A DNA stretch of 64,000 bases from Rhodocyclaceae bacterium (GTDB lineage: Bacteria > Pseudomonadota > Gammaproteobacteria > Burkholderiales > CAIKXV01), in assembly GCA_020248265.1 (NCBI GenBank), contig JADCHX010000004.1:601473-665472 (forward strand). Reading direction: 5' to 3'. The stretch's first letter is position 1. Each line of letters starts with the position of its first letter. Under the pieces are notes generated by a model that worked only from the letters and a program-made list of their open reading frames with translations, did not search any database and had not been told where the DNA came from. The translations under genes and the position numbers were made by a program. Shown here in pieces: positions 33,031 through 48,447 of this stretch.

Positions 33031-33894
33031 TCAGGCCGACGCCGTGGCGCCTGCAGCCGGCGCCACGGCGCCAGCATTCAGGATCTTCCGATAGCGATTG
33101 AGCGACTGCACCGTGTCGAAGTTCTGGCCGAGCAGGGTCGAGAGCTTCTTGAGGATCGAGCCGACCACCTTTCCTTCCCAGTCGCGGTCGAAGCGGATCT
33201 GCTGGTCGAGCCAGTATTCGAGCCAGGCTGGATCGGGCAGGCGACTCTGTACCGTATCGTTCGGGAACAGGGCCTTGCTCACATGCAGGTTGGTCGGGTG
33301 CAGTGCCTGCCCAGTGCGGCCGGCCGAGGCCATCAGCACACCCACCTTGGCGAACGCCCGTCTGGCCTCGTCGCCGAGCCGCTCGATGGCCTGCTGCATG
33401 TAGCGGAGATACGCGCCGCCATGCCGGGCCTCGTCGTGCGACACCAGCCGGTAGATGTGCTGGATCACCGGCTCGGTATGCCACTCGGCCGCACACTGGT
33501 ACCACTGCGTCAGCCGGAGTTCGCCACAGAAATGGAGCGTGAGCGTCTCGAGATACGGGGCCGGGTCGAAATCGAACCGTACCGCGTGCAGTTCTTCTTC
33601 GGTCGGGAGCAGGTCGGGCCGGAAGCGCCGCAGGTATTCCATGAGCACCAGCGAATGCTTCTGCTCTTCATAGAACCAGACTGACATGAAGGCGGAGAAA
33701 TCGCTGTCGTGGCGGTTGTCGCGCAGGAACATCTCGGTGGCCGGGAGCGCGGACCACTCGGTGATCGCGTTCATCTTGATCGTCTTCGCCTGCTCGTCGG
33801 TGAGCAATGCGGCGTCGAACGTATCCCACGGGATATCGTCTGCCATGTTCCAGCGGACTTTTTCCAGCTGACGGAAGATCTTAGGATAGAGCAT
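33031..33894 (-). CDS. Ferritin-like / acyl-ACP-desaturase-like di-iron protein
   Basis: This all-helical 287-residue protein has two carboxylate-His pairs typical of di-iron four-helix bundles: EEQKHSLVL and, about 80 residues later, [15 protein letters not shown]. The DExRH form and spacing recall soluble acyl-ACP desaturases more than ferritin cages. It has no membrane segments. The gene sits between rfaE2 and the photoreceptor-like regulator, with 7 nt to the latter and the same strand, so it may be cotranscribed with it. A di-iron oxygenase or desaturase acting on lipids would fit the neighbouring lipid operon, but that is inference. Confidence 0.72.
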
Positions 33895-33901
33895 CAGGGT
33901 T

Positions 33902-34831
33902 TCAGTCTGACAGGCGGGCCCGCCATTCGCCCAGGGCGGTGATGATCTGTTCGAGCCCGCGGAGCACTTCGACGCCTTCCCCGGGCGTGCGGGCGCGCAG
34001 CATGGCGTCGCCGCCGACCCAGAGGGCTATCCGTGCCGGAAGCATTTCGCGCAATTCACGGATACTACCGGTCGCAAGCCGTGCCGGGAATGCGGAACTG
34101 AACGAAATGGTAACGATATCGACGTCGTGCGCCAGCGCCGCCGCGACGATGTCGGCCGCCGGCGTCTCGATGCCGAGCGGAACACAGTACACGCCCTCCA
34201 GCGTGAGCAATGCTTCGGCCATCAGCAGTCCCATGCCGTGCAGTTCGCCGGGCAGCGTAGTGAGCAGCACGCGTGGCGAATGGCCGCGCAACTGGATGCT
34301 GGCAATCGCATTGCGGAGCAGTCCCTGCATCTGCTCTGTGTAAAGGTGCTCCTCGAAAACGGCGATTTCGCCGCGTACCCACGCGTTGCCTATCGCGCGG
34401 TTCAGGGGCACCACGATGTCGAGCACGAACGGACGCAGGCCGTCGCGCAACAGGTTCTGGGTCAGTGTCTGACGCAGTTCCAGCGACTTGTGCGAGCGCA
34501 CCAGGTTGAGCAGTGCCTCGACGTCGGGGCTGTGCGCCGGGCTTTCCGCTTCGTTGCAGAGTGCATTCAGCTCGTCGAGCGACTTCGAGATGATCTTGCT
34601 CGGCCGGTGGCCCTGGTCGAGCAGCCGTTTGAGCAGGCGCAGCTTGTCGACCTGGTCGGACGGGTAGATGCGCTCACCATGGGCATCGCGGTAGGGTTGC
34701 GGAAATCCGTACCGGCGCTCCCAGACGCGCAGCGCGTCTTTCGACAGGCCGGTATCGCGCTCCACCGAACTGATGTTCACCGGTGCACGTTCAGCGCCCG
34801 GTTCCTCAATCACCGAAGTTTTCTTGTCCAT
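33902..34831 (-). CDS. litR: MerR-family regulator with B12-binding light-sensor domain (LitR/CarH type)
   Basis: The 309-residue protein has an N-terminal MerR helix-turn-helix (SSVERDTGLSKDALRVWERR, RIYPSDQVDKLRLL), a helical bundle and a C-terminal cobalamin-binding Rossmann domain. The light-sensor signature W-x9-EH is present as Trp151...Glu161-His162. The cobalamin lower-ligand motif E-x-H-x-x-G is ELHGMG with His198. The spacing between these residues is as in CarH. In known members adenosylcobalamin makes a DNA-bound tetramer in the dark, and light breaks it to release repression. It is divergent from the lipid operon at 35114-42760 and is its likely regulator. Confidence 0.88.
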   Translation of the reverse strand: MDKKTSVIEEPGAERAPVNISSVERDTGLSKDALRVWERRYGFPQPYRDAHGERIYPSDQVDKLRLLKRLLDQGHRPSKIISKSLDELNALCNEAESPAHSPDVEALLNLVRSHKSLELRQTLTQNLLRDGLRPFVLDIVVPLNRAIGNAWVRGEIAVFEEHLYTEQMQGLLRNAIASIQLRGHSPRVLLTTLPGELHGMGLLMAEALLTLEGVYCVPLGIETPAADIVAAALAHDVDIVTISFSSAFPARLATGSIRELREMLPARIALWVGGDAMLRARTPGEGVEVLRGLEQIITALGEWRARLSD

Positions 34832-34859
34832 GGTACAGGTTAGACACAAGCGAGGGGAT

Positions 34860-34889
34860 TTGCTGAGACTACATCAAGCGGGCGATACT
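34860..34889 (+). promoter_or_regulatory. Candidate sigma-70 promoter for the lipid operon
   Basis: TTGCTG (34860-34865) and GATACT (34884-34889) are 18 nt apart in the litR/amine-oxidase intergenic region. The match is moderate; a start near 34896 would give a leader of over 200 nt containing the palindrome at 35027-35056. Confidence 0.35.
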
Positions 34890-35026
34890 GACTAGGACAA
34901 GTGATCTGTGCGAGCAGGCGTTTCCAGGACTGGGAATGGTCGACGCCCCCCGCCGTAGCTGTCCAGTAACCCGGCGGGACAGATCATTCAGCACACGGCA
35001 AGCCCTCGCAAACGGGATTGTCAGGA

Positions 35027-35056
35027 TGCGACGCTCGATTAACATCGTGCGTCGCA
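35027..35056. promoter_or_regulatory. 30-bp imperfect palindrome upstream of the amine-oxidase gene
   Basis: TGCGACGC (35027-35034) and GCGTCGCA (35049-35056) are perfect inverted repeats. Inside them CGAT / ATCG pair again after one mismatch, leaving a TAAC centre. It ends 57 nt before the GTG start. It could be an operator for a dimeric regulator or a stem-loop in the leader. No T-run follows, so it is not a terminator. Confidence 0.6.
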
Positions 35057-35113
35057 GGCCAGGCTGACGCAGGGCCTGAAGATCCCGGCACCAAACCAGA
35101 AGGATGACGGCGG

Positions 35114-36418
35114 GTGCAGCAGACAACGATAGCAGTGGTGGGTTCCGGCATATCCGGATTGGCCACGGCCTGGCTTCTTCGCGATCGGTACAAGGTAACC
35201 CTGTTCGAGGGCGGCGAGCGGCCGGGCGGCCATACCAACACGATCGACGTCGAAGTCGATGGGCAGCGCTTTCCGGTGGATACCGGTTTTCTCGTGTTCA
35301 ACGAACGCACCTATCCCAACCTCATCGCGCTCTTCGACCTGATCGGCGTGTCCTCGGTCACCAGCGACATGTCGTTCAGTGTCTGCATGGAAGAGCCCCG
35401 GCTCGAATGGGCCGGAACATCGATCGCATCGCTCTTCGCCCAGAAGCGAAACCTGGTGCGGCCACGTTTCTGGGGCATGCTGGCCGACATCGCGCGCTTC
35501 AACCGCGAGGCTCCCGGCTTCTTCGATCCCGACCCGGCGCGTCCGATGGACCTCGGAACCTACCTCGAGCGCGGCCGCTACGGCGAGGCTTTTCGTGACT
35601 GGTACCTGCTGCCGATGGCTGCGGCGATCTGGTCGTGTCCGGTCGAGTCGATGCGGGCTTTCCCGGTGGCAAGTTTCATCCGTTTCTTCGTCAATCACGG
35701 CCTGTTGCAGGTCACCCGGCGGCCGCGCTGGATGACGGTAACGGGCGGCGGTCGGGAGTACGTGCGCCGGCTTTGTGCTGACCTGCCTGACGTACGGCTA
35801 TCGACTCCGGTCACGCGCGTGCGCAGGCTCCCGGACAGCGTCGAGGTGACGGGCGGCGGCCAGGTCGAGCGTTTCGATCAGGTCGTGTTCGCCTGCCACA
35901 GCGATCAGGCGCTGGCCGCGCTGGCTGATCCCTCCGGGGCGGAGTCGGAACTGCTCGGCGCGGTGCGCTATCAGCCCAATGTGGCGTGGCTGCATACCGA
36001 TGCCTCGTTCCTGCCGCGCTCGCAGGTGGCGTGGGCGGCATGGAACTACGCTGGTACCGGTACTGGCGGCCAGGGCGGCCAGGGCGGCCAGGGCGGCCTG
36101 CCCGGTGCCGGTGCATCGGTCAGCGTGACCTACCTGATCAACCGCCTGCAACCACTGCCCACGGCCACCCCGGTGATGGTGACGCTGAATCCGTACCGCA
36201 CGGTTGCCCCGGCGCACGTGATCCGGCGCATCGAGTACGCGCATCCGATGCTCGACGCGCCTGCGTTGGCCGCACAGCAGCGGTTGCCTGCGATGCAGGG
36301 GGTCAACCGCACCTGGTATTGCGGTGCATGGACCGGTTACGGCTTCCATGAAGACGGTCTCAAGTCGGCGCTGGCGGTAGCCGCCGGGCTCGGCGTGCAA
36401 GCGCCGTGGACGGCATGA
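35114..36418 (+). CDS. FAD-dependent amine-oxidase-like flavoprotein
   Basis: This 434-residue protein begins with the FAD-binding motif IAVVGSGISGLATAWLL and the second nucleotide motif RPGGHTNTIDVEVDG. The NAD/FAD amine-oxidase fold continues to a C-terminal TWYCGAWTGYGFHEDGLKSA flavin-binding stretch. Such proteins precede DUF1365 and Cfa genes in many proteobacteria. In those clusters they are thought to act as fatty-acyl desaturases or oxidases rather than on amines. The GTG start has an AAGGATG site. A Gly-Gln repeat inserted at about residues 318-329 is unusual. It is the first gene of the operon. Confidence 0.85.
   Translation: MQQTTIAVVGSGISGLATAWLLRDRYKVTLFEGGERPGGHTNTIDVEVDGQRFPVDTGFLVFNERTYPNLIALFDLIGVSSVTSDMSFSVCMEEPRLEWAGTSIASLFAQKRNLVRPRFWGMLADIARFNREAPGFFDPDPARPMDLGTYLERGRYGEAFRDWYLLPMAAAIWSCPVESMRAFPVASFIRFFVNHGLLQVTRRPRWMTVTGGGREYVRRLCADLPDVRLSTPVTRVRRLPDSVEVTGGGQVERFDQVVFACHSDQALAALADPSGAESELLGAVRYQPNVAWLHTDASFLPRSQVAWAAWNYAGTGTGGQGGQGGQGGLPGAGASVSVTYLINRLQPLPTATPVMVTLNPYRTVAPAHVIRRIEYAHPMLDAPALAAQQRLPAMQGVNRTWYCGAWTGYGFHEDGLKSALAVAAGLGVQAPWTA
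36065..36100 (+). repeat. In-frame 9-bp tandem repeat (x4)
   Basis: There are four copies of GGCGGCCAG (the last is GGCGGCCTG). They encode a Gly-Gly-Gln repeat inside the flavoprotein. Copy-number change would keep the frame. Confidence 0.9.
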
Positions 36419-37203
36419 CTGTCGGCTGCGGACTGACACCGGCGATCTGCGCCGGTGAAGTGCTGCATCGGCGTCTGTCTCCCGTCGGACACTCGTTTCG
36501 TTATCCAGCGTTCTTCCTTCGGCTGCCACTGGCATGGATCGAATCGGGTCGCCTTCACGACCACCCGCGGCTGTTCGGGATCGATCGCTTCAACCTGTTC
36601 AGCCTGATGCGGCGGGATTACGGCCCCCGCGACGGTTCTCCGCTCGGCCCCTGGATACGGCTGCTGCTGCGGGACAACGGCCTGCAGGCTGCCGATGGCG
36701 AAGTGGTTCTCTATACACTCCCCCGGGTGCTCGGTCATGCATTCAATCCGGTGAGTTTCTGGATGTGCCATGACCGTGAGGGCGGGCTGAGGGCCGTGAT
36801 GTGCGAAGTCAGCAACACGTTCGGCGAGCATCACAACTATCTGGTGGCCCGTCCCGACGGTGCCGTGATCGGCACCGGCATGCGGTTGCATGCACGCAAG
36901 GTGTTCCATGTGTCACCGTTCTTCCCGGTCGACGGCGAGTACGGCTTCCGTTTCCATGAAGACGAAGGGCGCTGCCTGTTCAGGATCGACTATCAATGCG
37001 CGGGCGTGCCGCAACTGACCACCTCGCTGTCGGGCGCGGCCGGGTCGCCATCCGACGCGGCGCTGCTGCGCGCCTTCCTGCGACTGCCCTGGCTGATGGC
37101 GGGGGTGATCGCGCGCATCCACCTGCAGGCATTCAGGCTTTGGCTCAAGGGAGCCGTGTTCCATCGTAAGCCGGTCCCACCGGTCGAAACGACGACGCGC
37201 TAG
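36415..37203 (+). CDS. DUF1365 family protein
   Basis: This 262-residue protein has the DUF1365 landmarks LHRRLSPVGHSFRYPAFFLR, HDHPRLFGIDRFNLFSL and the HAFNPVSFWMCHD core. VFHVSPFFPVDGEYGFRF lies in the second half. The biochemical role is unknown. The family is nearly always found between an amine-oxidase-like flavoprotein and a Cfa-type methyltransferase, as here, which ties it to fatty-acid modification. The ATG at 36415 overlaps the upstream stop as ATGA. Confidence 0.88.
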   Translation: MTVGCGLTPAICAGEVLHRRLSPVGHSFRYPAFFLRLPLAWIESGRLHDHPRLFGIDRFNLFSLMRRDYGPRDGSPLGPWIRLLLRDNGLQAADGEVVLYTLPRVLGHAFNPVSFWMCHDREGGLRAVMCEVSNTFGEHHNYLVARPDGAVIGTGMRLHARKVFHVSPFFPVDGEYGFRFHEDEGRCLFRIDYQCAGVPQLTTSLSGAAGSPSDAALLRAFLRLPWLMAGVIARIHLQAFRLWLKGAVFHRKPVPPVETTTR

Positions 37204-37261
37204 ATGCGCCGGTGTACCGGCCCGTCGAAGCTGCGTTCCTATCCCTCTGAAAGGTTCATTG

Positions 37262-38536
37262 ATGACTGAAGTTACCGTCGAGCAGTCGCGCGACACGGAT
37301 GCGCAGCCGGTCACCGACCGGGAGTCGGTGCGCCGGATCCGCGCCGCGATGCCCCCGGCCGGCCAGTTGTTCATGCGAGTGCTCGACCAGATCCGCATCG
37401 GGCGCATCGACCTGGTGACGCCGGATGGCGAGTGGCTGTCGTGCGGCGGCGAGGCTGGTCCCCACGCCACGCTGACCCTGCGCTCCTGGGCGGCGGCCGA
37501 AGATATCCTGCGCAAGGCCGATATCGGGCTGGCCGAGGCCTACATGTCGGGCGACTGCGATATCGATCGTCCGGCGGACCTGCTGACTATCGCGCTGCTC
37601 AACCAGCAGCGCATCGAGCGCGCCTTCTACGGCAACTGGGTAGCCGTGCTCTGGTACCGGCTGCGCCACTGGTCGCGCGCGAACACCCGCTCCGGCAGCC
37701 GGCGCAACATCGTCGCCCATTACGATCTGGGTAATGATTTCTACCGGCTGTGGCTGGACCCGACGATGAGCTACTCGTCGGCATGGTTCGGGGGCAACCC
37801 GGCGCAGCCGCTCGACCGTGCGCAGCAGGCCAAGTACGAACGTATCCTCGACCGGCTCGGTGCCCGGCCGGGGGAGCACATCCTCGAGATCGGCTGCGGC
37901 TGGGGTGGCTTTGCCGAAGCGGCTGCACGCCGCGGCTGCAGGGTGCGAGGCATCACGCTGTCGCCGGCGCAGCTCGAATTCGCGCGGCAGCGTATCGACG
38001 CCGCCGGCCTGTCCGGACTGGTCGAACTGTCGTACACCGACTACCGCGACATCGACGGTCAGTACGACCATGTGGTGTCGATCGAGATGTACGAAGCGGT
38101 CGGCGAGCGCTTCTGGCCGGCCTACTTCCGTGCCATCCACGACGTGCTGAAGCCGGGAGGCCGTGCCGTGATCCAGGGCATCACGATCCACGACGAGGTT
38201 TTCGGTCGCTACCGCAGGGGCACCGACTTCATCCAGCAGTACGTGTTCCCGGGCGGCATGCTTGCTTCCGAGACCGCGTTCGCCCGGGAGGCCGGGCGTG
38301 CGGGCCTGCAGCTCCACGCGAGCGAGGCGTTCGGGCGCGACTATGCGGAGACCCTGCGTCGCTGGCTGAAGGCATTCACCGAAGCCGAACCTCGGGTGCG
38401 CGCGCTCGGCTTCGATGACCGATTCATCCGCATGTGGCGGTTCTACCTGTGCTATTGCGCTGCGGGCTTCGATTCCGGCCGCACCGACGTGCTCCATTTC
38501 GAACTGTCGCGTCTTTTCCAGGGAGGCTCCCGATGA
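37262..38536 (+). CDS. Cyclopropane-fatty-acyl-phospholipid synthase family methyltransferase
   Basis: This S-adenosylmethionine-dependent enzyme of the Cfa family adds a methyl or methylene group to the double bond of membrane phospholipid acyl chains. The 424-residue protein has the substrate-side motif YDLGNDFYRLWLDPTMSYSS and the AdoMet-binding loop LEIGCGWGGFAEAAA near residue 210. Further motifs are EMYEAVGERFWPAYF and FIQQYVFPGGML. The ATG has an AAAGG site. The flavoprotein/DUF1365 context resembles the Cfa-like methyltransferase (UfaM) of furan fatty-acid synthesis, so the product may be a methylated rather than cyclopropane chain. Sequence alone does not decide. Confidence 0.9.
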   Translation: MTEVTVEQSRDTDAQPVTDRESVRRIRAAMPPAGQLFMRVLDQIRIGRIDLVTPDGEWLSCGGEAGPHATLTLRSWAAAEDILRKADIGLAEAYMSGDCDIDRPADLLTIALLNQQRIERAFYGNWVAVLWYRLRHWSRANTRSGSRRNIVAHYDLGNDFYRLWLDPTMSYSSAWFGGNPAQPLDRAQQAKYERILDRLGARPGEHILEIGCGWGGFAEAAARRGCRVRGITLSPAQLEFARQRIDAAGLSGLVELSYTDYRDIDGQYDHVVSIEMYEAVGERFWPAYFRAIHDVLKPGGRAVIQGITIHDEVFGRYRRGTDFIQQYVFPGGMLASETAFAREAGRAGLQLHASEAFGRDYAETLRRWLKAFTEAEPRVRALGFDDRFIRMWRFYLCYCAAGFDSGRTDVLHFELSRLFQGGSR

Positions 38537-39126
38537 ATCGCATCCAAACTGCCGGCCGGCGCAGGCTGCTGGGCCTGGGTGGTGCGCTTTCGCTGCTGGC
38601 ACCGGTCGTGGCGCTGCGGGCCGGGCCGGCCGGCGCGGCGGCTACCGTCAACCATGCGCTGTCCCTGCTGCCGCCGCTGGTCGTCGCGCAGTCAGGTGAG
38701 CTGCGCCGGATCGGGGCCGGCACCATGCGCTGGTTCGGCCTGCACGTATACGATGCGGCACTGTGGGTGCGCGATGCGAGCTGGGACAGCGCCGATACCT
38801 TCGCGCTGGACATCGTCTATGCCCGCGACATCACGGGCAAGGCGCTGGCCGAGAGCAGCATCACCGAGATGAAGCGCGTCGGATTCACCGACGAAACGCG
38901 ACATGCCCGCTGGTTGCCGGCGATGGTGCGCACGTTCCCCGACGTCGGCCGCGGCGATCGGCTGGTCGGCCTCAACCTAAAGGGTGGGGGTGCCGCCTTC
39001 TTCAACCAGGATCGCTCGCTGGGCACCATCGACGATCCGGTCTTCGCACGCGCATTCTTCGCCATCTGGCTGGACCCCAGGACGCGCGAGCCGCAGCTGC
39101 GCAACCGCCTGCTCGGCAAGTCCTGA
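38533..39126 (+). CDS. Chalcone-isomerase-like exported protein
   Basis: This 197-residue protein starts with an arginine-rich signal (GRRRLLGLGGALSLLAP) that could be Tat-type. A chalcone-isomerase-like fold follows: IGAGTMRWFGLHVYDAALWV, then VYARDITGKALAESS and GGGAAFFNQDRSLGTIDDP. Bacterial members of this fold bind fatty acids or have unknown function; flavonoid chemistry is not implied. Its start overlaps the Cfa stop as ATGA. Confidence 0.8.
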   Translation: MNRIQTAGRRRLLGLGGALSLLAPVVALRAGPAGAAATVNHALSLLPPLVVAQSGELRRIGAGTMRWFGLHVYDAALWVRDASWDSADTFALDIVYARDITGKALAESSITEMKRVGFTDETRHARWLPAMVRTFPDVGRGDRLVGLNLKGGGAAFFNQDRSLGTIDDPVFARAFFAIWLDPRTREPQLRNRLLGKS

Positions 39127-39128
39127 CC

Positions 39129-40424
39129 GTGCCGTCGCCAGCCCCTCCCCGGCAGGGCGGTCCGGGTCGGCTCGCTTCATCGCAACTGGCCGCATACAGT
39201 CTGTTCAGCGTGCCGCTGCTGATGACCGCGCTGCCGATCAATATCCTTTTGCCGGCGTTCTACAACGCGCGTACGGGGCTTTCGCTCTCGGTGATCGGGG
39301 TTGTGTTCTTCCTCACCCGGTTGATCGACGCCGTCGTCGATCCGCTGCTCGGGGCATGGGTCGATGTGCAGAAGCAGCGCGCGTCCTACCTGCCGCCCGT
39401 GCTGATCGGTGCGCCGGTTCTGGCCATCGGATTCGCTTTGCTGCTGGTGCCGCCTGCGGGCATGGGCGAGGTGGCAAGTGCAGGCTGGCTTGCCGCCACG
39501 CTGGCTACCGCGTACATCGGCTACTCGCTGGCGATCGTCGCCTACCAGGCCTGGGGCTCCGAACTTGCCAATGACGATGCAGGTCGTGCGCGAATCACCG
39601 GTGCGCGGGAAGGCGCGGGGCTCGTTGGCGTACTGGCTGGCGCGGTGCTGCCGCAGGTGATCGGCATGGCTGCGATGGTGGCGGTGTTCCTGGCCGCGCT
39701 GGGGGCTACCGTATACCTGCTCGCGCGTTGCGCGCCGCGGCCATCGCCGGCCGGCGTGCCCGCTGCGGGCCCGCGGTCCAACCCGTTCTCTGCCTTCGTC
39801 GTGCCACTGGCGAGCGGACGCTTCCGCTGGCTGTTGCTGGTATTCGCACTGAACGCCATCGCGCCGTCGATCACCGCGACCGTGTTCCAGTTCTTCGTCG
39901 CCGACCGACTCGGGCTGGCCGGTTACGTTCCTGCCTTCCTGGCGCTCTACTTCATCGCCGGCGCGGTCAGCATGCCGTTGTGGATGAAACTGGCCACCCG
40001 ATTCAGCCTGCACGTGGTCTGGCTGGCCGGCATGGTGGCTGCGGTGGCCGCCTTCGTCTGGGCTTACTGGCTGGACGCGGGCGCGGTGTGGGGCTTTGCG
40101 GCGATCTGCGTCCTGTCGGGCTTCGCGTTCGGTGCCGATCTCGCGCTGCCACCGGCGCTCCTGGCCCGGGTCATCGATGCCAACGGCCATGGCAGCCAGC
40201 GCGAAGGCGCCTACTTCGGTCTGTGGAATTTCGTGAACAAGCTGACCCTTGCGGTTGCCGGCGGCATCGCCCTGCCGCTGCTGGAGGGGTTGGGCTACGT
40301 CGCCGGTTCGCAGGATGCCATAGCGCTGTCCGCGCTGGCGTTCACCTATGCGATCGTTCCCTGTGCATTGAAGCTGGTCGCGGCCGCGCTGCTCTGGTCC
40401 GCCTGGCGCAACGCCCGTTTCTGA
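39129..40424 (+). CDS. MFS transporter, glycoside-pentoside-hexuronide (GPH) type
   Basis: This 431-residue twelve-helix membrane protein starts at a GTG 2 nt after the preceding stop. The GPH/MFS_2 features are FLTRLIDAVVDPLLGAWVDV at the helix 2-3 loop, AYQAWGSELANDDAGRARIT after helix 4, and REGAYFGLWNFVNKLTLAVA late in the protein. The family was named for sugar:cation symporters. Similar genes occur in light- or singlet-oxygen-induced lipid operons, where lipid or fatty-acid movement is plausible. The substrate is unknown. Confidence 0.87.
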   Translation: MPSPAPPRQGGPGRLASSQLAAYSLFSVPLLMTALPINILLPAFYNARTGLSLSVIGVVFFLTRLIDAVVDPLLGAWVDVQKQRASYLPPVLIGAPVLAIGFALLLVPPAGMGEVASAGWLAATLATAYIGYSLAIVAYQAWGSELANDDAGRARITGAREGAGLVGVLAGAVLPQVIGMAAMVAVFLAALGATVYLLARCAPRPSPAGVPAAGPRSNPFSAFVVPLASGRFRWLLLVFALNAIAPSITATVFQFFVADRLGLAGYVPAFLALYFIAGAVSMPLWMKLATRFSLHVVWLAGMVAAVAAFVWAYWLDAGAVWGFAAICVLSGFAFGADLALPPALLARVIDANGHGSQREGAYFGLWNFVNKLTLAVAGGIALPLLEGLGYVAGSQDAIALSALAFTYAIVPCALKLVAAALLWSAWRNARF

Positions 40425-40442
40425 CCGTCCCCGGAGGTACCG

Positions 40443-41018
40443 ATGATCACTGTATTCCTTCCCGAATCCGTGTGCGACCGCGCGCTGCGCCGGCTTCGCA
40501 TGCTGTTCGCCGCGCTGGTGGCATCTGCCACGTTCGCCGGATGTGCGTCGGTCGAACCGCAGGCCTACTCCGCCGAGAAGCCGGTGCTCGACCTGCAGAC
40601 ATATTTCAACGGCACGCTGATCGGACACGGCATGTTCCAGAGTCGGTCGGGCAAGGTCGAGCGGCGCTTCGTCGTGACCATCGATGCTAAGTGGGAGGGT
40701 AATGTCGGCACGCTCGACGAACGCTTCGAATGGTCGGATGGCGAGAAGCAGCGTCGGGTCTGGACGATCACCCGGACGGGCGCAGGGACGTATACCGGCA
40801 CCGCCGATGACGTGGTCGGCACAGCCGAGGGCCGGGCGGCGGGTAACGCGCTCTACTGGGCCTATACGCTCGCGCTGCCGGTGTCCGGTCGCACCTGGCA
40901 TGTCCGCTTCGACGACTGGATGTACCTGATCGACGACAAGGTGATGCTCAACACCGCGGTGATGAGCAAGTGGGGTATCCGGCTCGGCCAGGTCACGCTG
41001 AGCTTCAGCCGTAAATGA
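40443..41018 (+). CDS. DUF3833 family lipoprotein
   Basis: This 191-residue protein has a lipobox SATFAGC near residue 30 and the DUF3833 core LDLQTYFNGTLIGHGMFQSR. Further landmarks are VGTAEGRAAGNALYWAYTL and FDDWMYLIDDKVMLNTAVMS. The beta-rich fold suggests lipocalin-like ligand binding, but function is unproven. GGAGG precedes the ATG. The family recurs beside SDR and Cfa genes in similar clusters. Confidence 0.87.
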   Translation: MITVFLPESVCDRALRRLRMLFAALVASATFAGCASVEPQAYSAEKPVLDLQTYFNGTLIGHGMFQSRSGKVERRFVVTIDAKWEGNVGTLDERFEWSDGEKQRRVWTITRTGAGTYTGTADDVVGTAEGRAAGNALYWAYTLALPVSGRTWHVRFDDWMYLIDDKVMLNTAVMSKWGIRLGQVTLSFSRK

Positions 41019-41479
41019 CGCCTGGAGGCGGCTTGCGCGACGTTCCGCCAGCGGCGCTGTGGCCAGGGTTGGCCGGCCTGCTGCCGTTCCTGGCGTGCGC
41101 GTTGTTGCCGTTGGCGACCGACGCCGCGTGGCATCCGCTCGCGCAGCAGGCGCTGGTCGCCTACGGCGCGGTGATCCTGACCTTCGTCGGGGCCATCCAC
41201 TGGGGCATTGCACTGATGGTGCCGCGGCATCCGGCCAGCGCGGCCTGCTTCGGCTGGTCGGTGGTTCCCGCCCTGTGGGGATGGCTCGCCTTGTTCCCGT
41301 CGTTCATCGCCTCGCTCGCGCTGCTCGGGACCGGCTTCATCGTGCAACTGGCCGTGGACTACCGCGCCGCTCGCGCGCTAGGCCTGCCCGCGTGGTACCT
41401 TGCGTTGCGCTCGATGCTGACATTGGGCGTGCTGCTGTCGCTGCTCCTCGCGTCGCTCGCGGCAGCGATCGCCAGCTGA
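41015..41479 (+). CDS. DUF3429 family inner-membrane protein
   Basis: This 154-residue protein has about five hydrophobic helices. The DUF3429 pattern is AYGAVILTFVGAIHWGIAL, with WSVVPALWGWLALF in the next helix and a loop FIVQLAVDYRAARA. No catalytic motif is seen. The start overlaps the DUF3833 stop as ATGA. Its role in the cluster is unknown. Confidence 0.85.
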   Translation: MTPGGGLRDVPPAALWPGLAGLLPFLACALLPLATDAAWHPLAQQALVAYGAVILTFVGAIHWGIALMVPRHPASAACFGWSVVPALWGWLALFPSFIASLALLGTGFIVQLAVDYRAARALGLPAWYLALRSMLTLGVLLSLLLASLAAAIAS

Positions 41480-41546
41480 GCCCAGGCCTCCCTCCGCGCA
41501 TGTACCCGTCCCTTCCGATCCACGCATCCGCCCCCCGCAGGCCGTC

Positions 41547-42323
41547 ATGTTGAATGCCCCGATCAGGGACTGGAAAGGCAGGCGAGTCTGGCTGATCGGC
41601 GCGAGCAGCGGCATCGGTCACGCGCTCGCGAAGGTGTTGATCGCCCGCGGCGCGAAGGTTGCTGTGTCGGCGCGCAACGGCGCCGCGCTGCATGAACTCG
41701 CCGCGTCCACCCGGCCGTCGAACGTACTGGCGCTGCCGCTCGATGCAACGCGCGTCGATCAGCTCGAGGCGGCGCTGCGCGAGATGACGGATGCGTGGGG
41801 TGGCATCGATATGGCGATTTTCCTGCAGGGGACCCACGAGCCGGTGCGCGCCTGGACACTGGACTCCGCGGTCGCGCATCGGCTGGTCGATACCAACCTG
41901 CTGTCGGTCCTCGATTCGCTGGCGGTCGTGCTGCCGCAGATGCTGCGCCAGGGCAGCGGCGGCATCGCGATCTGCTCGTCGGTCGCCGGCTACCGCGGGT
42001 TGCCGACCAGTCTGGTGTACGGCGCCACGAAGGCCGCGCTGATCAACCTGGCGGAGACGCTGTACCTCGACCTGTCGCCACGTGGCATCGGCGTGTGGAT
42101 CGTGAATCCAGGCTTCGTCAGGACGCCGCTGACCGACCGCAACGAGTTCCCGATGCCGGCGCTGATCAGTGCCGACGAAGCCGCGACGCATATCGTCGAT
42201 GGCCTTGCCAGCGGCCGCTTCGAGATCCACTTCCCGAAGCGGTTCACGCGCTGGCTGCGCCTGTTCCGCCTGCTGCCCTACGGACTGTACTTCCGGCTGG
42301 TGCGGCGCTTCACCGGGTTGTGA
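41547..42323 (+). CDS. Short-chain dehydrogenase/reductase
   Basis: This NAD(P)-dependent classical SDR has 258 residues. The cofactor motif LIGASSGIGHALAKVL is near the N-terminus. The active-site Ser lies in ICSSVAGYRG and the YxxxK motif is VYGATKAALINL. The C-terminal third carries LFRLLPYGLYFRLVRRF, which looks amphipathic and could touch membranes. The substrate is unknown; the operon context suggests a lipid intermediate. A 67-nt gap separates it from the DUF3429 gene. Confidence 0.88.
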   Translation: MLNAPIRDWKGRRVWLIGASSGIGHALAKVLIARGAKVAVSARNGAALHELAASTRPSNVLALPLDATRVDQLEAALREMTDAWGGIDMAIFLQGTHEPVRAWTLDSAVAHRLVDTNLLSVLDSLAVVLPQMLRQGSGGIAICSSVAGYRGLPTSLVYGATKAALINLAETLYLDLSPRGIGVWIVNPGFVRTPLTDRNEFPMPALISADEAATHIVDGLASGRFEIHFPKRFTRWLRLFRLLPYGLYFRLVRRFTGL

Positions 42324-42328
42324 CCAGC

Positions 42329-42760
42329 ATGGACACGCGCGCGGCCCTGGCACGCCTGGAGTCGCTCTACACCGGGCTCACACCCGCGCGTACCGGCGAA
42401 CTGCGCGAGGTCTATGCGGCCGATGCCTGGTTCCGCGACCCGTTCAACGAGGTCCGCGGCCCCGAGGCGATCGAGCGCATCTTCGTGCACATGTTCCGGC
42501 AGGTCGATTCACCGCGCTTCGTGATCCTGGAGCGCGCGATCGACGGCGCTACCGCCTGGCTGACCTGGGACCTCGAGTACCGGGCCAGCCCGGGCAAGCC
42601 ACTGCGTCGCATCCACGGCGCGTCACAGCTGCGATTCGATGCCGACGGGCGCGTGACGTACCACCGCGACTACTGGGACGCAGCCGGAGAGCTGTACGAA
42701 TCGATACCGCTGCTGGGCAGCGTGCTGCGCCTCCTCAGGAAGCGGCTCGGCGCCGGCTGA
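42329..42760 (+). CDS. NTF2-like (SnoaL-like) small protein
   Basis: This 143-residue alpha/beta cone protein contains EVYAADAWFRDPFNEVRG and VTYHRDYWDAAGELYE, typical of polyketide-cyclase-like NTF2 folds. An in-frame GTG at 42320 overlaps the SDR stop as GTGA and could be the true, coupled start. No catalytic residues can be assigned. It is the last gene of the plus-strand lipid operon; the next gene converges. Confidence 0.82.
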   Translation: MDTRAALARLESLYTGLTPARTGELREVYAADAWFRDPFNEVRGPEAIERIFVHMFRQVDSPRFVILERAIDGATAWLTWDLEYRASPGKPLRRIHGASQLRFDADGRVTYHRDYWDAAGELYESIPLLGSVLRLLRKRLGAG

Positions 42761-47709: not shown

Positions 47710-48080
47710 GAAGTCAGCCAGACAGTCGCCGTGCCGCTCGTCGGTGCGGAGGAAAGTCCGGGCTCCACAGAGCGGGATGCCGGCTAACGGCCGGGCGCAG
47801 CAAGCGGTGGCGAGAGTCATTGCCCAAGGCGACGGAAAGTGCCACAGAGAACAGACCGCCGATGGCCGAAAGGCACAGGCAAGGGTGAAACGGTGCGGTA
47901 AGAGCGCACCGCGTTCGCGGCAACGCGAATGGCACGGCAAACCCCATCCGGAGCAAGACCAAATAGGGGGGCACTGGCGCTGCTCGCGTTGCCCCCGGGT
48001 AGGTCGCTCGAGCCGTCGGGTAACCGCCGGCCCAGATGAATGACTGTCCTCGACAGAACCCGGCTTATCGGCCGACTTCA
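47710..48080 (+). ncRNA. rnpB: RNase P RNA, bacterial class A
   Basis: The catalytic RNA that trims tRNA 5' ends. Conserved blocks are present in order. The P1 arm is GAAGTCAGCC, pairing with GGCCGACTTC at the 3' end. CAGACAGTCGCCG comes next, then GAGGAAAGTCCGGGCTCCAC, ACAGACCGCCGATGG, GGTAAGAGCGCACCG and AGATGAATGACTGTCC. CAGAACCCGGCTTATCGG lies just before the 3' arm. A -10-like TACACT at 47694-47699 would start transcription just before the P1 helix. Ends are set by P1 pairing and are accurate to a few bases. Confidence 0.96.
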
Positions 48081-48447
48081 CGCACCCCTCATTCGTTCCC
48101 TGGCCCTGCGGGGCCCCCGCCGGTCGCCCGTTCGCGTCCGCCAGGGGCCTCTGCAACGAGCCCTGGCGCTTCGAACTTAAAGTAATACCTTCAGTTCGAC
48201 GGTTACGCGTCTCATTTCATTCGAGTAATGAATGATGTTCCCGCTCGTCTGCTTTGCCAGATAAGTCCTTGTTCATCCACGATAAATCACGATTGATCCG
48301 TTGACCGGCAGAAAAATTAGGGTTAACGTGGGGCTGGGTGGAAAGAAGTGGTGAATTGGGGAGATTCCAGGCTCGAATCGGCTGGAGATCCGGCAGCACC
48401 CTCTTTCCTTTGTATAGAGACATGGCCGATGGGCCGAGGGGGTCCGG
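48081..48447 (+). promoter_or_regulatory. AT-richer leader region of the dcw cluster with candidate promoter and MraZ boxes
   Basis: No gene is recognised here. The stretch 48170-48420 is clearly richer in A+T than its surroundings. TTGACC (48301-48306) and TAACGT (48324-48329), 17 nt apart, form a candidate promoter. Immediately downstream lie TGGGG (48329), TGGGT (48335), TGGTG (48349) and TGGGG (48357). These are TGGGN-type boxes like those MraZ binds in its own leader, although the spacing (6, 14, 8 nt) is not the regular 10 nt of E. coli. Confidence 0.45.

Follow-up and report, generated by a model that had tools for sequence, protein, structure and literature searches.

We analysed a window of 64,000 nucleotides from a Rhodocyclaceae bacterium (contig JADCHX010000004.1 of assembly GCA_020248265.1; genome of 4.55 Mb in 33 contigs, 98.28% complete), in which a regulator gene of the LitR family, litR (33902-34831, minus strand), stands divergent from nine co-directional genes (35114-42760) that include a candidate furan-fatty-acid set, ufaD, ufaO and ufaM. 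LitR probably switches these furan-lipid genes on directly, and it is likely that the protein is a repressor that binds adenosylcobalamin (AdoCbl) and whose hold on the ufa operon, and on furan lipids, is released by light. AdoCbl binding, repression, release by light and a furan product are what we infer by analogy with the biochemistry of CarH/LitR and Ufa proteins. The regulator gene reads as follows.

33902-34831, minus strand: litR, 309 amino acids, with a MerR-type helix-turn-helix, a four-helix bundle and a Rossmann B12 domain; W151, E161, H162 and H198 (Pfam, match to Thermus thermophilus CarH (TtCarH), alignment and AlphaFold model)

The regulator contains the domains MerR_1, B12-binding_2 and B12-binding, each above its Pfam cut-off (B12-binding at 33.3 vs 32.1 bits), and matches full-length Thermus CarH (5c8d) at E=4e-29. 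An earlier note on this DNA, written by a model from the letters and a list of open reading frames, had pointed to a MerR protein with W-x9-EH and E-x-H-x-x-G at CarH-like spacing; both motifs are present and align with W131, E141, H142 and H177, the AdoCbl contact residues of TtCarH, which are retained in 33/33 aligned sequences (the window protein and 32 homologues). The GTDB loci retrieved with the LitR protein number 32; loci carry L numbers below. The light signature GxxW/EH/GxxH/GxxxP (PMC11796333; papers are cited by PMC number) is complete in the window protein, and the Gly of GxxH is substituted in many relatives. An AlphaFold model for which 23 of the 33 sequences served as input has a predicted local distance difference test score (pLDDT) of 88.3 and a predicted template modelling score of 0.79, displays the two-part B12 fold and finds the TtCarH structures 5c8e/5c8d as its top PDB fold matches. 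Full-length superposition on CarH is poor (template modelling (TM) score ~0.5, different domain orientation), and that of the B12 half is better (TM ~0.8 by target). As in TtCarH and CtMerR, a MerR helix-turn-helix is joined to a two-part AdoCbl domain with the W/E/H/H residues (PMC11796333, PMC9304148). The genome encodes an adenosyltransferase of the PF01923 type, and a genome search for one of the BtuR/CobO type gave no match. This litR is the sole LitR homologue detected in its genome, and there is one copy in each of the 11 genomes of the window's family (a single genus, own genome counted). A LitR 96% identical to that of the window, which groups with the window's clade, comes from a record titled Bordetella parapertussis (L002, isolate LH-05nov19-259, a metagenome-assembled genome), an organism name that looks wrong.

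Control of the class II kind, in which the B12 domain would be vestigial and a separate short LOV photoreceptor would lift repression as in Pseudomonas, is very unlikely here, as the B12-binding domain scores over its cut-off, whereas class II proteins keep the four-helix bundle only. NCRFLQ, which we take to be the LOV motif, had 0 matches in the genome (98.28% complete) when searched as a degenerate exact DNA pattern, a search that divergent LOV motifs would escape. The argument for such control is that the target genes are the same as those of PplR/PmlR (PMC9758184). In Pseudomonas putida and P. mendocina, light induces ufaM 25- to 33-fold through these B12-independent class II LitR proteins together with a LOV protein (PMC9758184), and the P. 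putida light genes under PplR are folE2, ufaM and phrB (PMC8508746). Light control over ufa chemistry is therefore less new than the earlier note implied, LitR-family light induction of ufaM being already published for Pseudomonas (PMC9758184). What appears new is an AdoCbl-type LitR beside ufaDOM and the repeat TTGTCYWRGACAA discussed below, for neither of which was a published description found among open-licence PMC papers. The two systems share a LitR-family regulator, ufaM and folE genes, and a pair of sites in the mapped promoter (PMC9758184, PMC8508746). They differ in that the Pseudomonas proteins have lost the B12-binding domain and a short LOV protein senses blue light, while the window regulator retains its B12 domain and an exact LOV motif was not found in its genome. 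The Pseudomonas site is given as T(G/A)TACA-N12-TGTA(C/T)A, unlike TTGTCYWRGACAA, and the light set described there includes phrB, while the block in the window has no photolyase gene.

The genes facing litR are:

35114-36418, plus strand: ufaD-like flavin adenine dinucleotide (FAD) amine oxidase/desaturase (Pfam Amino_oxidase, 3.9e-20), adjoining the DUF1365 gene as in the proven pathway (PMC7380195)
36415-37203, plus strand: ufaO-like DUF1365 protein (Pfam DUF1365, 5.8e-73), the only DUF1365 match of the genome
37262-38536, plus strand: ufaM-like Cfa-family methyltransferase (Pfam CMAS, 8.1e-81), with Ser at the Cys139 position, Gln at the His266 position and the Glu of SIEMxEAVG
38533-39126, plus strand: chalcone-isomerase-like protein (Pfam Chalcone_3, 2.6e-11)
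39129-40424, plus strand: GPH-family MFS transporter, start codon uncertain (Pfam MFS_2, 1.5e-55)
40443-41018, plus strand: DUF3833 protein (Pfam, 1.1e-67)
41015-41479, plus strand: DUF3429 protein (Pfam, 9.2e-35), present in 6/32 loci, all six of the window's clade
41547-42323, plus strand: short-chain dehydrogenase/reductase (Pfam adh_short, 4.3e-38)
42329-42760, plus strand: NTF2/SnoaL-like protein at the end of the block (Pfam SnoaL_2, 9.1e-15)

Adjacent genes overlap or are spaced by at most 70 bp, consistent with one operon, and the nine families that the earlier note had named from the letters are those found by Pfam. The open reading frames it listed hold, with corrected starts: ATG 34831 rather than TTG 34849 for the regulator, and preferred in-frame ATG codons for ufaO (36415), ufaM (37262), the chalcone-like gene (38533) and the NTF2 gene (42329). 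What it said of a flavoprotein/DUF1365/Cfa set in Rhodobacter was also right: UfaD (RSP1091), UfaO (RSP1090, a DUF1365 protein) and UfaM (RSP2144) are the three enzymes with which Rhodobacter sphaeroides has been shown to produce the furan fatty acid 9M5 (PMC7380195). In the window a FAD amine-oxidase-type UfaD, a DUF1365 UfaO and a Cfa-type UfaM are encoded together, an assignment made by protein family and gene order.

Glu239, His266 and Tyr317 are named as the bicarbonate ligands of cyclopropane synthase (PMC11387697), and in 21/21 distinct copies of the Cfa-like protein His266 is replaced by Gln, with Glu239 and Tyr317 kept. In the same 21 copies, Cys139 is replaced by Ser or Ala and the Gly of SVGMFEHVG by Glu (SIEMxEAVG or SVEMxEAVG). 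These are the distinct copies passing the coverage filter (23 rows, L037 and L038 being the window's own gene), compared with the pockets of three solved cyclopropane synthases (6bqc, 5z9o and 7qos), which all keep His266. The substitutions, and the position of the gene directly after the UfaO- and UfaD-type genes, argue against an ordinary cyclopropane synthase in an operon for stress-type cyclopropane lipids, which we consider highly improbable even though the best solved relatives of the protein are Cfa enzymes and Halomonas UfaM in Escherichia coli also gave cyclic fatty acids (PMC12089945). The window enzyme is accordingly predicted to be of the UfaM type, with a furan precursor as its product. 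The ufa clusters of Cupriavidus and Caballeronia each hold one UfaM-type copy, likewise without His266 (directly after ufaO in Caballeronia and ~4 kb off in Cupriavidus), and in both clusters the other Cfa-like gene has retained Cys and His.

A search for the litR-ufa order in other genomes, as the earlier note had proposed, shows that 22/32 GTDB loci carry ufa genes on the side divergent from litR, as does the Azoarcus sp. KH32C plasmid pAZKH, where LitR is found with the ufa set minus DUF3429. The recurrence in 22/32 loci and the match of the regulator to TtCarH both exceed what chance would give. Within the 22 loci, ufaD is the first recognised gene in 13 and folE2 intervenes in 9 (gpx as well in 5 of these 9), and the remaining operon genes are mostly present as far as the contig extends. 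Across all loci, folE2 is found in 16/32 and a glutathione peroxidase gene (gpx) in 5/32, eight of these genes being confirmed by Pfam and the others by similarity. Such lipid and folate targets are unlike those described for Thermus CarH. The absence of a photolyase from the block, as the earlier note had it, stands. The note suggested that lipid change may be the main output; the repeat TTGTCYWRGACAA also faces folE2 and gpx in other loci, which makes lipid change unlikely to be the sole output of the regulator family. In L019, L025 and L027-L031, a repeat pair upstream of litR faces folE2 (GTP cyclohydrolase), with no ufa genes in the fetched flank, which suggests a link of LitR to folate/pterin metabolism in that clade.

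The repeat in question, the 13-bp inverted repeat TTGTCYWRGACAA, is the predicted operator of LitR. There are 25 exact copies in the 9,280 bp around litR starts and 0 in the remaining 523,729 bp of the 32 loci, and with at most one mismatch 45 copies near litR starts vs 6 elsewhere; as TTGTCYWRGACAA was derived from these same promoters, the counts describe specificity and are not an independent test. The Azoarcus promoter, examined after the motif was defined, carries one exact and one single-mismatch copy. In a set of 34 promoters, 11 of them from the window's clade, two sites exceed the threshold in 22, at spacings of 62 bp (4 promoters), 63 bp (12), 73 bp (1) or 74 bp (5), that is, 6 or 7 helical turns (periodicity at 10.5 bp, R=0.958, phase -0.09). 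That leaves 12 promoters: L023, where only one site is clear, and the 11 from the window's clade. Operators of Thermus CarH are described as tandem 11-bp direct repeats (PMC9304148), in contrast to these separate 13-bp inverted repeats, which come two per promoter in 22/34. The window itself, in the litR-ufa intergenic region (34832-35113), has two candidate sites:

34884-34900, minus strand: predicted LitR operator in a degenerate form, TTGTCCTAGTCAGTATC, exact in 8/11 clade sequences and the only exact copy in the 4.55-Mb genome
34838-34847, minus strand: predicted second LitR half-site, GTGTCTAACC, immediately before the litR start, with TGTC(T/C/G)A 52-53 bp from the first site in 11/11 clade sequences, a half-site picked after the alignment was seen

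The 13-mer at 34888-34900 has 2 differences from TTGTCYWRGACAA. Counting the window's clade, the spacing classes are ~5, 6 and 7 helical turns. On the LitR tree, which has several long branches, three class changes suffice, so the 22 spacings are not independent and the helical phasing of the paired sites is suggestive. A scan of the own genome with at most 2 mismatches gave 32 places vs 183 for the reversed control, and therefore only the litR-ufa site is trusted.

Promoters were scored against 200 mononucleotide shuffles. In the two-site loci, a promoter in the direction opposite to litR, near TTGACA-17-TATNNT, lies between the sites, with p<=0.01 in 19/22 (exceptions L010, L013 and L021), and the best promoter in the litR direction has its -35 element inside the first site in 22/22 (p 0.00 to 0.23). 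Of the 6 loci with a 73-74-bp spacing, 4 have the best promoter at an unchanged position relative to the first site and the second site shifted outwards by one turn. It is possible, though doubtful, that a LitR oligomer bridges the two same-face operators (~5, 6 or 7 turns apart), looping the shared promoter in the dark, and that light opens the loop by taking apart the oligomer that B12 holds together; we met no description of a light-breakable DNA loop for CarH/LitR.

The proposed mechanism would run as follows. In the dark, AdoCbl-bound LitR would sit on the inverted-repeat operators of the litR-ufa intergenic region and block both divergent promoters. Light would break the Co-C bond and dissociate the LitR oligomer, allowing transcription of litR and of the ufa operon. 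In phospholipids with 18:1 chains, UfaM would then methylate the acyl double bond, UfaD would desaturate the methylated chain, and UfaO would insert O2-derived oxygen to give the furan fatty acid, with the chalcone-like, GPH carrier, DUF3833, DUF3429, short-chain dehydrogenase/reductase and NTF2 genes presumed accessory. Furan acyl chains are destroyed by singlet oxygen (PMC6852236). Physiologically, the cell would form its furan lipids before singlet oxygen does damage, and it would do so with a genome in which no ChrR sensor was found.

Several observations weigh against this light-released repression by LitR. The regulator scores 134.5 bits, below the 400-bit cut-off of the CarH equivalog NF052513 (NCBIfam), and the position of H132 is Val in the window protein and Met, Ser or others in relatives. 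For these two reasons we call the protein an AdoCbl-signature LitR, a relative of CarH rather than CarH proper. In TtCarH, H132 ligates cobalt after light (a bis-His light state) and the H132A variant is unable to monomerise; CtMerR, which lacks H132 as the window protein does and apparently has Arg there, still monomerises in response to light (PMC11796333). It follows that light sensing by the window LitR is still possible, with a different light state, and that H132, being dispensable in CtMerR, is not class-defining. The missing H132, with a light state that may differ from that of TtCarH, would also fit a B12-status or redox sensor that keeps the operon repressed as long as AdoCbl is present and frees it once AdoCbl is lost from any cause, as would the lack of a photolyase gene in the block and a distance of ~10 kb from the nearest site to photolyase-type genes elsewhere. 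We regard such a sensor as unlikely, given that CtMerR without H132 is light-responsive (PMC11796333) and that folE2 and the ufa genes match a known light regulon (PMC8508746).

The DNA around the genes provides further counterpoints. The motif of the window's clade is degenerate, 10/11 sequences having no copy at one mismatch or fewer (L026 has one). The promoters of the window score no better than shuffled sequence (p 0.59 for litR and 0.30 for ufa), and in the clade p<=0.01 is reached in the ufa direction by only 1/11 (L001), so that the promoter evidence is the weakest link for the window itself. No ufa genes were found alongside litR in 10/32 loci (L010, L013, L015, L019, L025 and L027-L031), of which 7 carry folE2 there instead and L015 has an upstream flank of only 306 bp. 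Three of the five listed betaproteobacterial plasmid matches to LitR were inspected. Around the plasmid LitR homologues of Eleftheria and Comamonas, the annotation shows no ufa genes within 12 and 8 kb, respectively, in a collection whose gene tables are incomplete. No light, B12-binding or lipid results were found for any member of this LitR-ufa group.

A poor sigma70 match at the window promoter could also mean that a singlet-oxygen sigma factor is the main driver of the operon, with the adjacent LitR as a minor modulator, and elsewhere the ufaDO pair does adjoin a ChrR-sigma gene pair (Qingshengfaniella) or a sigma/anti-sigma pair (Caballeronia). This seems improbable, the own genome having no ChrR match over the TIGR02451 curated cut-off and only three sub-cut-off cupin matches. 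The R. sphaeroides sigmaE-ChrR regulon (RSP1091-1087 and RSP2144) shares the ufaD-ufaO order, UfaM chemistry and extra operon genes (PMC7380195, PMC6852236), and deletion of further ufa-operon genes is reported to have left its fatty acids unchanged (PMC7380195, PMC6852236). Unlike in the window, singlet oxygen acts there through ChrR and ufaM lies elsewhere; here the operon includes ufaM and has LitR as its neighbouring regulator. The blue-light response of Vibrio cholerae also includes a MerR protein, VCA0056, and a cfa-like gene, VC1122, that blue light induces; it differs in that VCA0056 shares a predicted operon with phr (VCA0057) and 159 of 222 light-regulated genes are ChrR-dependent (PMC5241685). 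The ufaDO pair also stands beside a TetR regulator in Cupriavidus and has no regulator immediately beside it in Paracoccus seriniphilus, and its occurrence beside LitR, ChrR-sigma, a sigma/anti-sigma pair or a TetR regulator is clear regulatory rewiring. On the Cupriavidus sp. USMAHM13 plasmid (L088, 6941-17771), where ufaD-ufaO are next to the TetR-type regulator, two Cfa-like genes, a lipocalin, DUF2878, DUF1295 and a cryptochrome/photolyase gene are nearby.

If light-released control by LitR is correct, a B12 photoreceptor directly governs membrane-lipid chemistry, beyond carotenoid synthesis, and TTGTCYWRGACAA puts a definite sequence to what may be a new light-responsive promoter. In Rhodobacter, the furan-fatty-acid genes are required for ChrR turnover (PMC6852236); a genome that has the ufa pathway next to a regulator of the light type, with no ChrR match above the cut-off, makes it possible to ask whether furan lipids protect by themselves.

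Next to litR lies one further gene, absent from the earlier note:

33031-33894, minus strand: ferritin-like diiron protein, downstream of litR after a gap of 7 bp (Pfam FA_desaturase_2, 8.5e-08 over residues 136-184)

It is possibly the second gene of the litR transcript. The gene adjoins litR in 11/32 loci, 10 of them in the window's clade, and a further copy sits on a Methylibium plasmid, where the annotation shows no LitR-type regulator within 5 kb; in view of both findings, its membership of the light module is kept as a mere possibility. The protein is 75% identical to one of Aromatoleum, matches the acyl-ACP desaturase and AurF families in part only, and gives a poor AlphaFold model (pLDDT 45.7).

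Three photolyase/cryptochrome-type genes lie elsewhere in the genome (contigs C8 and C4, L034-L036), one of them ~100 kb from the window. A photolyase under LitR control was rejected as a candidate, the nearest listed site being ~10 kb from one of these genes and in the list that falls below its control. In Eleftheria, litR stands divergent from a fasciclin-domain gene (L050 11400-11858); such a gene also neighbours ChrR-sigma in Qingshengfaniella (L051 2821-3288), and is possibly another light or singlet-oxygen gene. No riboswitch turned up in the long leader of ufaD at the gathering cut-offs of Rfam, and the only RNA found in the window was the bacterial class A RNase P RNA (RF00010) at 47710-48083 on the plus strand.

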